NCBI GenBank assembly: GCA_903970355.1
Contig: CAJCIF010000264.1
Coordinates: 1 to 10,539, forward strand
DNA: 10,539 bases
Source of the DNA: Actinomycetota bacterium
Lineage (GTDB): Bacteria > Cyanobacteriota > Vampirovibrionia > Obscuribacterales > Obscuribacteraceae
Direction: 5' to 3'
The position numbers and the translations under genes are program-made. The notes under the pieces were generated by a model. The model ran no database searches. It was not told the origin of the DNA and was given only the letters and a program-made list of their open reading frames with translations. This document shows, in pieces, positions 1,955 to 10,539 of the stretch; within the stretch, counting starts at the first letter, position 1; each line of letters starts with the position of its first letter.

Positions 1955-2947
1955 GTGCAATCTATTCGAATTGGCTTCCAGGGAGAGCCTGGTGCTTTCA
2001 GCCATCGTGCTTGTCTTGTATTTGTGCAACAGAGTTCTGTTGCGCATAAAGTCGAATTTGTATCGCTTAAAAACTTCGAAGCAGTATTCAACAGTGTCAA
2101 TGACGGTGAATGCGATTTCGGTGCAATTCCACTAGAGAACTCTACCGTTGGTTCGATATTAGGCAATTACGACTTTTTGTGGAAACTCGATGTTGCTATC
2201 GAGGCAGAAATTCTTTTGCCCGTTCGTCATCAGTTAATTGGATTTGCCGGCAGTGATCCCGAAAAACTGCAAGCGATATATTCGCATCCAGCTGCTCTCG
2301 ATCAATGCAGAAATTTCCTCAGATCACTGCCCGAAGCAAGACCTGTTCCATTTTGGGACACTAGCGCTTCGGCTCTCTTTGTGAGGGAATCAGGCAATAA
2401 GCATCTTGCTGCAATCGGTTCTGAATACGCAGCAAACGAAGCCGGTTTGGTTGTGTTGAAAGAGAATGTCGAAGACCATGAAGGCAACAACACCAGATTC
2501 GGTATCGTAAGCAAACAAGGAAGAATCGACTTTAGTGTGCCTAACGGTAACGGCAAACGAAAGTTTCATTCGATGAACACTGAATTCAACGGCTGCCCAG
2601 CCCCATATAAAGTGACATTTGCAGTGCAATTGGCTCACGAACCGGGTTCATTGGCACGATTACTGGCAGCAATCTCCGAGCTAGAGATAAACCTTACGAA
2701 AATCGAGTCTCGTCCTATACCAGAAACTCCGTGGCACTATCGTTTCTTTATCGATTTTGAATTGCCTTCCAGCGAGAAGGACGCAGCCCTGAGAGATGTG
2801 TTGGTATCACATGCGGAAGCCCACAAGTTTCTGGGCAGATATCAAAACTGGAGCGAGCCTTTAGAGGCGAAAGACCTAATGCACGGTGACAACAATTTGA
2901 CCCTGCCAGTAGAACCTGTGCGCGTCAGTGGGCGAGATATCGTATAA
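1955..2947 (+). CDS. pheA: Prephenate dehydratase with C-terminal ACT regulatory domain
   Basis: Converts prephenate to phenylpyruvate, the committed step of phenylalanine synthesis, in the cytoplasm. The start is GTG at 1955: an in-frame TAA lies directly before it (1952-1954), and the conserved N-terminus IRIGFQGEPGAFSH begins at residue 4. The dehydratase domain covers about residues 4-186 and includes IPLENSTVGSI (58-68) and the catalytic NNTRFGIVSK motif (178-187, Thr180 expected to be catalytic). The ACT domain covers about 218-295, with the phenylalanine-site motifs HEPGSLARLL (228-237) and ESRP (251-254), so feedback inhibition by Phe is expected. There is no chorismate mutase domain, so this is a monofunctional enzyme, and that activity must be encoded elsewhere. 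A tail of about 30 residues follows the ACT domain, and its last 24 codons (with the stop) overlap the 3' end of the convergent secreted-protein gene. The ribosome binding site is weak (GGCGG about 10 nt upstream). Confidence 0.95.
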   Translation: MQSIRIGFQGEPGAFSHRACLVFVQQSSVAHKVEFVSLKNFEAVFNSVNDGECDFGAIPLENSTVGSILGNYDFLWKLDVAIEAEILLPVRHQLIGFAGSDPEKLQAIYSHPAALDQCRNFLRSLPEARPVPFWDTSASALFVRESGNKHLAAIGSEYAANEAGLVVLKENVEDHEGNNTRFGIVSKQGRIDFSVPNGNGKRKFHSMNTEFNGCPAPYKVTFAVQLAHEPGSLARLLAAISELEINLTKIESRPIPETPWHYRFFIDFELPSSEKDAALRDVLVSHAEAHKFLGRYQNWSEPLEAKDLMHGDNNLTLPVEPVRVSGRDIV

Positions 2948-3316
2948 GCCAGCCCTAACGGTATAGGTGCCGGGCTTCGAATAGACGTGATATCCAGCCG
3001 TATGGTTCGGTTGGTCGGCTGGTTTTACACCGATGACAGCGGAGTCACCCACGCCGCTATCGTCACCCCAACTAATGTAAAATTGGTCTCCCCATTTGTT
3101 TCGCTGCACGTTTTTCGTTTCCCAGTCGTCCCATGCTTCTTGCAATTCCTTTGGAGTTACGATTCGAACGGAAAGTGGTGCCTTGCCTTCTGTGTGATCC
3201 AGGGTTAGTGCCTCAGTCAAATGCGGATGTGGACTATCATATGCCCTTGCAAACGGGGCTAGAATAAGAGCTGCCAGGGCAATTAAAACTAGCGCTCCTA
3301 ACATCTGCTTTTTCAT
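2876..3316 (-). CDS. Small secreted PKD-like domain protein
   Basis: 146 residues from the chosen start. A Sec signal peptide is clear: MKKQ, then a hydrophobic Leu/Ala core, then a likely cut after ARA before YDSPHPH. The mature part looks like a single immunoglobulin-like PKD domain: GKAPLSVRIV as the first strand, YISWGDDSG (about 80-88) matching the WxFGDGS turn, HVYSKPGTYTVRAGLYD (about 110-126) matching HxYxxPGTYTVxLxxxD, and a final strand GQIVVTV. A helical, Trp-rich insert (EAWDDWETKNVQRNKW) separates the first strand from the rest. PKD domains mediate protein or glycan contacts outside the cytoplasm; no catalytic motif is seen. ATG at 3316 is preferred over ATG at 3322 because a GAGG lies 8 nt before the former but only 2 nt before the latter, and MKK is a typical signal-peptide start. 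The 3' 72 bp overlap the end of pheA on the opposite strand. Confidence 0.78.
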   Translation of the reverse strand: MKKQMLGALVLIALAALILAPFARAYDSPHPHLTEALTLDHTEGKAPLSVRIVTPKELQEAWDDWETKNVQRNKWGDQFYISWGDDSGVGDSAVIGVKPADQPNHTAGYHVYSKPGTYTVRAGLYDISPTDAHRFYWQGQIVVTVH

Positions 3317-3337
3317 GCCCATATCCTCGCAAAGAAG

Positions 3338-3374: not shown

Positions 3375-4643
3375 CTAGTGTTTTGTATGAGGACCGTTCC
3401 AATCATGAGAACTTCGTACGAAACGATCGCTCTCTTTCGTTAGAACGTCTGCCTTTTTTAAGTGTTCCATCTCGCTCGGAAATGACCAGGGCCGGGAAGT
3501 TACTTCGTCTTTCGCAGCGTTATAAAAAAGATGCGTCCGATTGTCGCAAAGCGAAAAGAATCGTGAAGGGCAGGAGTACTCCGTGATGCCTGTGCGTTTG
3601 TCATGGCGTTGCCAAAGTGTCATAGGAGATCCTTCAACAATCGACCATCCAGAATCACTCGGAGGTTGAGTGTGTATGGCATCCCGATCTTCTTGTGTCA
3701 TAGGTCTGTACAATTCACCATTTTTTCTTTCCTTCCACCCATGTGCATCAGCGTCACTTCCGGGATTCCTTCTTTCAGAGCCATTATCACCAGCCTTGCA
3801 ATATGACACCAACTCTTCAAATTGCTTATGGAAAGGTGCATACGGACCTGGTGCAAAATTTTCGCCAGAATTTGCAACTGCAAAATTAAGCTGTCTACCA
3901 CCAACAAACTTTTGTATTTCCGTTTGCACATCTTTTAGCACTTTATTGGCTGTTTCTATTGGAGCCGAAATATCGACTTTCGGCAGGTGAAGGGCTGCAT
4001 CTCTACTCAGGGCATTTCCAGCTTTAAATGCATATGCCGTCGTGGCAAGATCAACAGCAGCATTAGCGACTGGCGGTGTGATCTCGTTTCTCATTACGTC
4101 CGTGCTCGCAACAAGTCCGACACTGTCCAAATGACCAATTGAACTTATTGCCTTCGAAAATCTTGTATTACGTTCTTTATGTTCATTCCCAAATAGTTCA
4201 TTCGAACCATTTGCAAGGCCCAATGCCGAACCGACAGCTAACACTCCCAGTCCAATCGGAGGGGCAACTGTTTCCACCAAACCGACTGCGGCACCGCCTA
4301 AAGCATTAGTAATTGTGTCTTTTGCAGATTCAACAGGATGTGTAATGCCATTTTTTAGTTGATCGCCAATACCATATAGTGGTGCACCAGCAAATAAAAT
4401 AGTGCCTTGTCCAATCTGCCGAACCTTTTCTTCACCCAGCAACTTTGCTGCATCCGGTCCGACAACATAAACACCAACCGCCGCGCCTAGATCATTCGGG
4501 CGAACATGCAAGTTGTCGATTTGCTTTTTTCCGTATAGCCGTTCATCTTCAGCCAACATCTTTGAGCATGCTTCTATGGCTTTCTGCTCGCATACTGCTT
4601 TATCCGGCTCGGTATGTGTTACGCCTGAATCCAATCCACTCAT
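3375..4643 (-). CDS. Hypothetical protein, two-part, with Gly/Ala-rich hydrophobic centre
   Basis: 422 residues; I do not recognise the family. The start is well fixed: ATG at 4643 has a strong AAAGGAG 7 nt upstream. There is no N-terminal signal peptide. Residues 1-50 are charged and helical. Residues 55-146 are rich in Gly, Ala and Val (for example GGAAVGLVETVAPPIGLGVL, 116-135) and could be membrane-associated. Residues 189-250 are Ala-rich and helical. After about residue 260 the composition changes: the rest is hydrophilic and rich in Trp, His, Asp, Ser and Arg, with a compact region SGWSIVEGSPMTLWQRHDKR (331-350) followed by TGITEYSCPSRFFSLCDNRT. The shift from a hydrophobic Gly/Ala segment to a polar, Trp/His/Cys-containing C-terminus resembles the plan of some secreted effectors with a variable tip. 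No known toxin or immunity motif is identifiable and no immunity gene is apparent, so that reading is speculative. Confidence 0.8.
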   Translation of the reverse strand: MSGLDSGVTHTEPDKAVCEQKAIEACSKMLAEDERLYGKKQIDNLHVRPNDLGAAVGVYVVGPDAAKLLGEEKVRQIGQGTILFAGAPLYGIGDQLKNGITHPVESAKDTITNALGGAAVGLVETVAPPIGLGVLAVGSALGLANGSNELFGNEHKERNTRFSKAISSIGHLDSVGLVASTDVMRNEITPPVANAAVDLATTAYAFKAGNALSRDAALHLPKVDISAPIETANKVLKDVQTEIQKFVGGRQLNFAVANSGENFAPGPYAPFHKQFEELVSYCKAGDNGSERRNPGSDADAHGWKERKNGELYRPMTQEDRDAIHTQPPSDSGWSIVEGSPMTLWQRHDKRTGITEYSCPSRFFSLCDNRTHLFYNAAKDEVTSRPWSFPSEMEHLKKADVLTKESDRFVRSSHDWNGPHTKH

Positions 4644-8547: not shown

Positions 8548-8586
8548 AAACAGAAATAATAATAGTTAAGTCGTGAGCGGAATACA

Positions 8587-8615
8587 TTGACGGTTGGACG
8601 CTATCGGATTATTCT
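8587..8615 (+). promoter_or_regulatory. Candidate sigma70 promoter for the ileS leader
   Basis: TTGACG (8587-8592, 5 of 6 consensus) and TATTCT (8610-8615, 4 of 6) are separated by exactly 17 bp on the plus strand. A start near 8622 gives about 37 nt before the leader ORF and about 139 nt to the end of the terminator, the size expected of a trp-type attenuator leader. Confidence 0.45.
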
Positions 8616-8654
8616 TCAATTTATATACGTAACTTTGTGCCCTGAGGTTCTCAA

Positions 8655-8734
8655 TAACATGCCGACTATCGACGCCATTATTATGAGGTTATGTTAGGGC
8701 TGGCTCCATGAACCCGGAAGTTTTCGATGCCAGC
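8655..8734 (+). promoter_or_regulatory. Alternative RNA structures of the putative ileS attenuator
   Basis: Antiterminator: GCTGGC (8699-8704) is perfectly complementary to GCCAGC (8729-8734), the core of the terminator 5' arm, so the two stems are mutually exclusive. The first of these closely mimics the terminator 3' arm (GTTGGC, 8743-8748). A competing early hairpin can form between TAACAT (8655-8660), which covers part of the leader start codon, and ATGTTA (8691-8696). Another, GGTT/ATG (8687-8693) with CAT-G-AACC (8707-8714), would enclose 8699-8704 in its loop. A clean strong 1:2 protector stem is not obvious; GCCGACT (8661-8667) with 8698-8704 gives only an interrupted pairing. Confidence 0.45.
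8659..8697 (+). CDS. Putative isoleucine-rich leader peptide of ileS (MPTIDAIIMRLC)
   Basis: A 12-codon ORF: ATG at 8659, TAG at 8695-8697. Three of 12 codons are Ile (ATC 8668-8670; ATT ATT 8677-8682), two of them adjacent. A GAGG lies 11 nt upstream (8644-8647), a usable but loosely spaced ribosome site. The stop codon is 1 nt before a sequence (8699-8704) that can pair with the 5' arm of the downstream terminator. A ribosome stalled at the paired Ile codons would leave that sequence free. A ribosome reaching the stop codon would cover it. This is the logic of a leader peptide sensing charged tRNA-Ile. The ORF is too short to prove translation from sequence alone. Confidence 0.45.
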   Translation: MPTIDAIIMRLC

Positions 8735-8760
8735 GCAAAAGCGTTGGCATTTTGTTTTCT
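8727..8760 (+). terminator. Intrinsic terminator in the ileS leader
   Basis: A 10-bp stem, ATGCCAGCGC (8727-8736) with GCGTTGGCAT (8741-8750), has a single G-U pair, an AAAA loop and a following T-rich tract TTTTGTTTTCT. It is oriented on the plus strand, 82 bp before the ileS start. No plus-strand gene precedes it within more than 5 kb, so it must act on a transcript that starts in this intergenic region, as expected of an attenuator (or of a short RNA). Confidence 0.8.
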
Positions 8761-8842
8761 AGAGCCATGGATGACGAACAATCAGCGCCAAAGTATGAAA
8801 CGAGAGTACAAGAAAATACCTAAAGATAAGGTAGAGGAAGAC

Positions 8843-10539
8843 ATGAGCGTGACGAAGGCCTATAGCATCAATAATCCCCAGACGGACTTTCCCATGAAGG
8901 CCAATAGCGCTGTGCGTGAGGTGGAAACCCAGAGGCGTTGGGATGAGATCAATGTTTATCAACGCAGTGTCGATAAACGCAAGAACGGACAAAAGTTTGT
9001 GTTGCACGATGGTCCGCCGTATTTAAGCTCCGCCAAAATACACATTGGTACAGCCCTCAACAAAATCCTGAAAGACATCGTTACTCGTTACAAAGCACTG
9101 CGCGGCTACTACGCGCCTTACGTGCCCGGATACGACAGCCATGGTTTGCCGATTGAAACTGCCGTGCTCAAAGACGTTAAGGGCGGCCGACATGCACTTT
9201 CGCCCGTTGAGCTTAGAAAGCGTTGTCGAGAATTTGCTCTCAACAATTTGAAAGGGCAGGAAGCCAACTTCAAACGGCTGGGCGTTTGGGGCGATTGGGA
9301 CCATCCGTATATAACACTTGATAAGCACTTTGAAGCAGCTCAGCTGCGGGTGTTCGGAGAAATGGCGGCCGCCGGATACTTATATAAAGGTCTGAAATCG
9401 GTATATTGGTGTACGCATTGCGAAACAGCGCTTGCAGAAGCGGAAATCGAATACGCGGATCATAAATCGCATTCGATTTACGTAAAGTTTGGGGTGGCTG
9501 AATCGTCAGTCTCGAAACTGCCAAAGTTTGCACAAGGCAAAGCAGTTTCATTCGTAATATGGACGACGACACCATGGACCCTTCCTGCCAACCTCGGTAT
9601 CGCCCTGCATCCCGAGTTCGACTATTCCTTTGTTGAATCGAAAGAACATGGCGTTCTAATCGTAGCGACTGAACTATTGCAAGACTTTCTTGCCAAAGTT
9701 GGGTTAGATCCGGCCGAAGTCACCACACTCGGTACCGTTAAAGGTGCCACTCTTGAATATGTCGAAGCTCTCCATCCCTATGCGGATCGCAAGAGTCTCG
9801 TCATTCTCGGAAACCACGTTACACTCGAAGCCGGTACGGGTTGTGTCCACACAGCTCCCGGACACGGTCCTGAAGACTTTGAAATTGGAGCTAAATACAA
9901 TCTTGGCGTTCTATCTCCTGTAAATGAACGAGGCATCTACACTGATGAAGCCTTGCAATTTGCTGGTATGCATTACGAGAAGGCACAAGAAGCAATCCTG
10001 AATACCTTGAGAGAGAAACATGCCCTCTTGCACAACTCAAGTTATACACACTCGTACCCGCATTGCTGGCGATGCAAAAACCCAGTTATCTTCCGTGCCA
10101 CCGAACAATGGTTTGCTTCTGTTGATGGCTTCCGTGCCAAGGCCTTGAAAGCAATCGATGAAGTGCAGTGGTTGCCTAACTCGGGACGCAATCGTATCTT
10201 TAACATGGTAGAAAATAGAGCAGATTGGTGCATAAGCCGTCAACGTTCCTGGGGTGTGCCGATCCCAGTTTTTTACTGCGATAAATGCAGAACACCGATC
10301 ATGACTGCCAAGAGTATCAACAAAGTGGCTGATATTTTTGATGAAGAAGGATCAGATTCCTGGTGGGAAAAGGATGCCTCTTACTTCCTTGAAAAAGGCA
10401 CAAAGTGCGAGAAATGCTCTGCCACCGAATTTATAAAAGAAACAGACATTATGGATGTCTGGTTTGATTCTGGATCTACACACGCCGCTGTACTCGATCA
10501 AAGACCAGAACTTAAAGGCACTCCTTGTGAAATGTATCT
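8843..10539 (+). CDS. ileS: Isoleucyl-tRNA synthetase (3' end outside window)
   Basis: Charges tRNA-Ile in the cytoplasm; class I synthetase. About 565 residues are visible. ATG at 8843 is chosen because GAGG lies 5 nt upstream and the N-terminus (NPQTDFPMKAN at 11-21) then has normal length; in-frame ATGs at 8708, 8771 and 8795 lack good ribosome sites. Seen in order: KFVLHDGPPY (51-60), the HIGH-box position reading HIGT (67-70), ALNKILKDIV (71-80), YVPGYDSHGLPIE (93-105), editing-domain WTTTPWTLPAN (240-250) and GTGCVHTAPGHGPEDF with His336 and Asp345 in the editing-site positions. These are followed by CWRCKNPVIFRATEQWF, DWCISRQRSWGVPIPVFY (ISRQR at 464-468), two CxxC pairs of a zinc-binding insert, and DVWFDSGSTHAAVL. 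The KMSKS loop and anticodon domain lie beyond the window. Features fit bacterial IleRS type 1. Transcription probably passes through the leader attenuator upstream. Confidence 0.95.
   Translation, partial: MSVTKAYSINNPQTDFPMKANSAVREVETQRRWDEINVYQRSVDKRKNGQKFVLHDGPPYLSSAKIHIGTALNKILKDIVTRYKALRGYYAPYVPGYDSHGLPIETAVLKDVKGGRHALSPVELRKRCREFALNNLKGQEANFKRLGVWGDWDHPYITLDKHFEAAQLRVFGEMAAAGYLYKGLKSVYWCTHCETALAEAEIEYADHKSHSIYVKFGVAESSVSKLPKFAQGKAVSFVIWTTTPWTLPANLGIALHPEFDYSFVESKEHGVLIVATELLQDFLAKVGLDPAEVTTLGTVKGATLEYVEALHPYADRKSLVILGNHVTLEAGTGCVHTAPGHGPEDFEIGAKYNLGVLSPVNERGIYTDEALQFAGMHYEKAQEAILNTLREKHALLHNSSYTHSYPHCWRCKNPVIFRATEQWFASVDGFRAKALKAIDEVQWLPNSGRNRIFNMVENRADWCISRQRSWGVPIPVFYCDKCRTPIMTAKSINKVADIFDEEGSDSWWEKDASYFLEKGTKCEKCSATEFIKETDIMDVWFDSGSTHAAVLDQRPELKGTPCEMY

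Follow-up and report, generated by a model that had tools for sequence, protein, structure and literature searches.

The window, that is, the whole stretch of 10,539 nucleotides analysed here, is contig C264 of a 3.7-Mb draft genome of the Cyanobacteriota that is 66% complete. It carries the 5' part of ileS, the gene for isoleucine--tRNA ligase, which runs off the window after 565 encoded amino acids; this partial IleS scores 660.4 bits against TIGR00392, for which the cut-off is 621.4. The closest ileS among the named records that we searched, at 68% identity, belongs to the 'Candidatus Melainabacteria' MAG SJ878 (L031, JADZFV010000306.1). Together with further hits, Gastranaerophilales among them, this match probably places the genome in the Obscuribacteraceae (Cyanobacteriota, Vampirovibrionia, Obscuribacterales), a family of non-photosynthetic cyanobacterial relatives and the one meant by "the family" below. 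A gene of the inositol-monophosphatase family lies upstream of ileS on the opposite strand. Elsewhere in the window, open frames at 2-1876 (624 aa), 2876-3322 (148 aa) and 3375-4643 (422 aa) have no Pfam or NCBIfam match at E 0.001, and the 624-aa frame resembles a beta-barrel receptor by eye. The features that concern us lie directly before ileS:

8555..8570, + strand: diverged copy (12/16) of an upstream promoter motif, (A/T)ATAAGAATCATTAAC, 16 bp before the -35 box
8587..8592, + strand: -35 box TTGACG, with a 17-bp spacer to the -10 box; of the 33 loci with a leader described below, 28 have TTGAC ahead of the ORF
8610..8615, + strand: -10 box TATTCT; TAT(C/G/T)CT-like boxes stand at 17-18 bp in many relatives
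8659..8697, + strand: leader peptide ORF of 12 codons, MPTIDAIIMRLC, stop TAG; equivalents in 33 of 47 family loci, the window included
8668-8670, + strand: third leader isoleucine, ATC (codon 4), from the sequence
8677..8682, + strand: putative regulatory Ile-Ile codons ATT ATT (codons 7 and 8), from the sequence and the spacing comparison over 33 loci
8699..8704, + strand: S2, antiterminator 5' strand, GCTGGC, directly 3' of the leader stop, from folding and covariation
8726..8736, + strand: S3, the shared strand that is also the terminator 5' arm; in the antiterminator it binds S2 through GCCAGC (8729-8734)
8741..8751, + strand: S4, terminator 3' arm, from folding and covariation
8750..8758, + strand: T tract of the intrinsic terminator, from the sequence
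8834..8840, + strand: Shine-Dalgarno-like GAGGAAG of ileS, from the sequence
8843..10537, + strand: ileS, 5' part

The ileS frame is open back through the terminator to an ATG at 8708 (8708-8842). We favour a start at 8843 over this ATG, in line with the relatives and the Shine-Dalgarno-like site.

An initial annotation had interpreted the region as a possible isoleucine leader-peptide attenuator of ileS, pointing to a promoter-like pair with 17-bp spacing, a 12-codon ORF with three isoleucine codons of which two are adjacent, a 6-nt segment after the stop codon complementary to the 5' arm of a terminator (GCTGGC at 8699-8704, GCCAGC at 8729-8734), and a strong intrinsic terminator ahead of ileS. 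All of these elements are where they had been placed; the terminator spans 8726-8751, with 11 pairs and a T tract. Within the window, promoter-like sites (8 against 15.2 in shuffled sequence) and terminator-like sites (12 against 10.7) are not over-represented, and the S2:S3 hairpin reaches p=0.065 against dinucleotide shuffles, with p=0.027 in a separate duplex test. The window alone is therefore weak evidence, and judged by itself the arrangement could be due to chance. That it is real is settled by the relatives.

Occurrence of the arrangement in the family and beyond

We read the ileS upstream regions of 47 of 50 genomes of the family individually; two genomes (G061, G024) had no ileS match at threshold, in a third (G014) the gene is cut by a contig end, and one of the loci read (L114) offers only 179 nt of upstream sequence. 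The same layout recurs in 33 of the 47 regions, the window included, and in 15 genera: a short ORF with two to four adjacent isoleucine codons among its last nine, then S2, mostly GCTGGC-like, then a terminator hairpin whose tail is T-rich, and then ileS. Related sequences among these loci are not independent of one another. The initial annotation had looked to relatives with conserved isoleucine codons and covarying stems for corroboration; the 33 loci provide it, and the comparison strongly supports the attenuator reading.

The leader ORF is absent from the other 14 loci (L008, L011, L013, L014, L017, L018, L023, L025, L029, L119, L121, L122, L123 and L125), which touch 10 genera, 8 of them wholly leaderless. 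Relatives that keep the terminator and lack the ORF, the pattern named beforehand as contrary evidence, amount to one locus of the 47, L121 of genome G070. This locus still has the promoter motif and, followed by a T-rich tail, a terminator-like hairpin; it represents a switch in decay or else an error of assembly, and the combination is not seen at the other 13 ORF-less loci. At L011 a small GCCAGC-TT-GCTGGC hairpin persists with neither T tract nor leader, and at L029 and L123 the upstream motif and a -35 box stand close to the gene without the device. A tree of IleS from 39 of the 47 family loci (29 with a leader, 10 without) requires 5 state changes for the leader trait, compared with a mean of 9.0 when shuffled. 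This count fits an old trait that has been lost repeatedly, which is probably how the leaderless loci arose; separate gains within the family could also have occurred.

The 12 ileS loci sampled from the other family of the order and from the class show no leader. A detector run on 92 loci from outside the family search (80 from named records and the 12 from the order and class) gave a single weak flag, L098; it skipped L101, which lacks upstream sequence, had nothing meaningful to scan at L089, which has none, and had 138 nt at L059. The detector undercounts, since it missed L031, which carries a leader when read.

A covariance model, R1, was built from the 33 sequences and searched against the 50 family genomes. 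It recovered those 33 ileS sites, which are its own training set, at E 4.1e-4 or better, together with four weak matches at E between 0.05 and 0.42. Two of the latter, in G000:C364 (E 0.05) and G026:C139 (E 0.34), lie antisense inside open frames and were discarded; one, G070:C690 (E 0.07), is the hairpin upstream of ileS at L121, and the last is in G008:C5 (E 0.42). When 292 genomes from the phylum were scanned under strict filters, with 15 candidates scored per listed genome, the candidates scored included just one match besides the genome of the window: a weak one (E 0.007) to a terminator lacking an isoleucine ORF, which we rejected. Within what was searched, the arrangement is restricted to ileS.

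Competing hairpins and the predicted position of the ribosome

An intrinsic terminator lies between the leader ORF and ileS in the window and in all 33 loci, and the antiterminator shares a strand with it. When the transcript is folded only up to S3, the minimum-energy structure pairs S2 into S3 in 33 of 33 loci, through 4-9 base pairs. Against dinucleotide shuffles of the part before S3, this pairing has p<=0.05 in 27 of the 33; the six that singly miss this level are L001 (the window), L009, L016, L117, L118 and L120. Folded at full length, some loci favour the terminator and others the antiterminator, and RNAalifold applied to the whole alignment returns the terminator only.

Both hairpins carry compensatory change. 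When strands are re-partnered between the 15 genera, mean energies weaken from -16.0 to -13.3 kcal/mol for S2:S3 and from -14.0 to -10.4 kcal/mol for S3:S4, and for either pairing not one of 2000 permutations attained the observed sum, whichever of the 50 resamplings with one locus per genus was used. In alignment A1, 85.4% of antiterminator cells and 93.5% of terminator cells are paired, with 16 two-sided changes against 7.3 in shuffles for the former and 41 against 13.1 for the latter, the shuffles ignoring relatedness; sliding the partner strand destroys both signals. Counting instead how many pairs show two-sided change gives no excess over shuffles (218 and 248 out of 500 scored at least as high), and the same applies to antiterminator pair types (350 out of 500); for terminator pair types 37 of 500 shuffles were as high.

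The spacing of these elements can be set against the dimensions of a ribosome, whose leading edge reaches some 12 nt past the start of the codon in its A site. Across the 33 loci S2 begins 11-20 nt from the first base of the run's last isoleucine codon (19 nt in the window) and 3-13 nt from that of the stop codon. With a footprint of this size, S2 would be largely or wholly accessible while a ribosome waits on isoleucine, and covered when a ribosome stands at the stop codon. At two loci where isoleucine adjoins the stop (L028, L030) and one where it is near the stop (L016), S2 lies 12-13 nt from the stop, compared with 3-8 nt elsewhere, so that the distance from isoleucine to S2 is kept. Over all 33 loci the isoleucine-to-stop and stop-to-S2 distances have a rank correlation of -0.53 (p=0.0015); taking the first locus per genus (n=15) gives -0.64 (p=0.011), and omitting L016, L028 and L030 gives -0.34 (p=0.065). 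One further single isoleucine codon lies nearer the stop in L006 and L022.

From this architecture we infer a course of events that would run from promoter use through translation, stalling and termination to a response to isoleucine. RNA polymerase would start at TTGACG/TATTCT, and a ribosome would follow on the short leader ORF. With Ile-tRNA scarce, that ribosome would stall on the isoleucine codons and leave S2 uncovered, free to pair with S3 as soon as S3 is made; S3 held in this antiterminator could not join S4, and polymerase would read on into ileS. With Ile-tRNA plentiful, the ribosome would reach the stop codon and cover S2, whereupon S3 would pair with S4 to form the terminator.

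In attenuators of the trp type a further hairpin, the protector, is formed by the leader ORF with S2. The initial annotation had called the protector stem of the window poor; the comparison corrects this, as no such stem is detectable above chance across the 33 loci. Judged by the energy of its duplex with the 75 nt that precede the stop, S2 reaches p<=0.05 in one locus of 33 (L016, p=0.04), and the probability that S2 is paired before S3 is made averages 0.61, compared with 0.62 in shuffles, with p<=0.05 again in one locus of 33 (L010, p=0.02). Neither test thus reveals the 1:2 hairpin of a four-segment trp/his/ilv-type attenuator, and the best model has three segments. We consider a build lacking the protector likely; in such a build S2 should stay free whenever the leader is not translated, and ileS would be on by default.

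A classical four-segment attenuator, in which a 1:2 protector would force termination whenever the leader goes untranslated, fits all the other parts, and the pairing of S2 with the leader at L016 and L010 could be taken as its trace. Pairing at p<=0.05 in a single locus per test, and at shuffled levels overall, tells against it; a weak or long-range protector might escape both tests, and we regard this classical form as rather unlikely.

Isoleucine specificity and the upstream motif

A scan blind to the amino acid, which recorded codon doublets within the last nine codons before any stop lying 6-75 nt upstream of a terminator-like hairpin, found an isoleucine doublet at 31 of the 47 ileS loci, with alanine, leucine and serine next at 5 each; under a looser rule for the T tail the figures are 33 of 47 for isoleucine and 8 of 47 for leucine, the next in rank. 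Comparison loci were taken from the matches listed, at most 30 per gene and fewer than all genomes that have the genes. Among these, 30 loci each of valS, thrS and pheS showed no doublet of isoleucine or of the gene's own amino acid (one thrS locus, L194, has only 43 nt upstream), and 21 ilvB loci none of isoleucine, leucine or valine; of 30 leuS loci, 1 has a leucine doublet, 2 have at least three leucines and none has an isoleucine doublet. Leader attenuators at these five genes were accordingly set aside, the scan having turned up nothing comparable to ileS. Neighbouring codons for the amino acid of the downstream gene mark the short leader ORF at 33 of 47 ileS loci, and in these scans isoleucine alone is enriched in this way.

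Of the 297 codons that the 33 ORFs contribute from their last nine positions, 116 encode isoleucine (88 ATT, 22 ATC, 6 ATA), a share that is not independent evidence because the loci were picked for an isoleucine doublet. Outside the isoleucine run the leader peptides differ between genera. Within genus g23 (7 loci) the start, the 14-codon length and four isoleucine columns are kept, with one silent change, and in genus g13 one leader isoleucine codon is replaced by threonine. Variable sites in g23 number 4, 6 and 5 at codon positions 1, 2 and 3, and none of the three genera compared (g23, g12 and g13, with L007 of g12 one codon out of register) shows a third-position bias, so that conservation of the peptide beyond its isoleucine codons is unsupported. 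Shine-Dalgarno pairing is weak in many of the leader ORFs.

These results bear on whether the hairpin might be an ordinary constitutive or partial terminator, for example of a small RNA, that happens to follow an AT-rich stretch read as isoleucine codons. L121, with its hairpin and T-rich tail and no isoleucine ORF, is a case in its favour. Against it, isoleucine stands out over all other amino acids; the isoleucine run, the stop and their spacing are kept over 15 genera whose peptides otherwise differ; and S2 covaries with S3. Such a terminator is a very unlikely explanation.

In searches against Rfam, the window gave no match at E up to 5, and 16 family loci (the 14 leaderless ones and two with a leader) gave none at gathering scores; as positive controls, 3 of 4 Firmicutes ileS loci returned a T-box. 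A T-box-like or other riboswitch that binds tRNA-Ile directly, beside which the short ORF would be incidental, is therefore scarcely credible here: ileS T-boxes occur in Firmicutes and some Actinobacteria (available portions of PMC2494555 and PMC1262725) and were recovered in our controls, but the window and the 16 family loci have no T-box match, the conserved parts are in-frame isoleucine codons near a stop at ribosome spacing, and T-boxes are listed for 0 of 13 cyanobacterial genomes in the accessible part of PMC2494555.

Taken together, the region is very probably a conserved, isoleucine-specific leader-peptide transcription attenuator that would tune ileS to the supply of charged tRNA-Ile.

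A second element lies further upstream. The motif (A/T)ATAAGAATCATTAAC, at 11 or more matches of 16, precedes a TTGA(C/T) box at 22 of the 47 family loci, by 16 bp in 19 and 17 bp in 3, a count that has no null since the motif was drawn by eye from the same loci as the best of several placings; four of the 22 loci are leaderless (L011, L029, L121, L123). Exact search for its 14-mer core ATAAGAATCATTAA, an independent test, found one occurrence in each of 8 of the 50 genomes, all 8 upstream of ileS; the reversed 14-mer, as a control, occurs once in the 50 genomes. The motif forms an imperfect dyad, TAA-N6-TTA. It is perhaps an activator site, and our guess would be that a protein in contact with RNA polymerase binds there. 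We think it somewhat better than an even bet that the whole is a minimal three-segment attenuator serving ileS alone, in which S2 is hidden solely by the ribosome at the stop codon and the untranslated default is expression, joined in many genomes by a promoter element of its own that suggests a second, protein-mediated layer for the same gene.

The large subunit of acetolactate synthase (TIGR00118, E up to 1e-150) is found in 21 of the 50 family genomes and in 6 of 21 high-quality ones, and was not found in the other 29, some of which are incomplete. Many members of the family may thus not make isoleucine, and a shortage of it may be sensed chiefly at ileS in many of these genomes.

Relation to known attenuation systems

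The trp, his, ilvGMEDA and pheST operons of E. coli are controlled by leader-peptide attenuators. The predicted ileS switch resembles them in having a short ORF rich in the regulatory amino acid, a ribosome whose position is the switch, and an antiterminator and intrinsic terminator that are mutually exclusive. It differs from them in its target, ileS, in its host among the Cyanobacteriota, in the placing of S2 close behind the stop codon, and in that no 1:2 protector was detected in it.

For control of a single aminoacyl-tRNA synthetase gene by a leader peptide coding for its own amino acid, the nearest parallels are attenuators predicted for Streptomyces trpS and leuS, as described in the available passages of PMC1262725; these concern other amino acids in another phylum, and ileS there is, according to the same passages, under translational T-boxes. 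The ileS T-boxes of Firmicutes and Actinobacteria, as far as the accessible parts of PMC2494555 and PMC1262725 describe them, act on the same gene and respond to the same signal, uncharged tRNA-Ile, but they bind the tRNA directly, independently of translation, and no T-box match is present here. The S. aureus ilv-leu attenuator (accessible text of PMC5794164) likewise combines a terminator with a leader peptide, containing leucine and isoleucine codons; unlike the switch proposed here, it controls biosynthesis, mainly by leucine, and no synthetase gene.

The initial annotation knew of no well-described leader-peptide attenuator for ileS. This holds for the mechanism: literature on ileS and synthetase leaders, T-boxes and attenuation in cyanobacteria and Melainabacteria, taken mostly at the level of titles and the opening of abstracts, yielded no description of such a device. 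It needs qualifying as to the ORF, since CCNA_03934 of Caulobacter crescentus is already named an ileS leader CDS, appearing as a negative control in a figure legend of a ribosome-profiling study (passages of PMC4117421), so that a leader ORF at ileS is not entirely without precedent. CCNA_03934 is likewise a short ORF ahead of ileS; it belongs to a different phylum, and those passages give neither its sequence nor its mechanism. Further cases may appear in Lopatovskaya et al. 2010, a comparative study of attenuation that covers operons for amino acids and for synthetases, known to us through its citation in PMC4833913; the consulted portion of the latter, a 2016 paper, states that there are no reliable data on attenuation in cyanobacteria.

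We judge the arrangement upstream of ileS, on what its sequence and those of its relatives suggest, to be a new form of ribosome-mediated attenuation, with three segments, directed at ileS and found in the Cyanobacteriota. It would provide that phylum with a well-supported case of attenuation, for a synthetase gene usually tied to T-boxes and in a build simpler than that of the textbook. The three-segment model also parts from trp-type control in what it predicts: with the leader untranslated, expression would be on.
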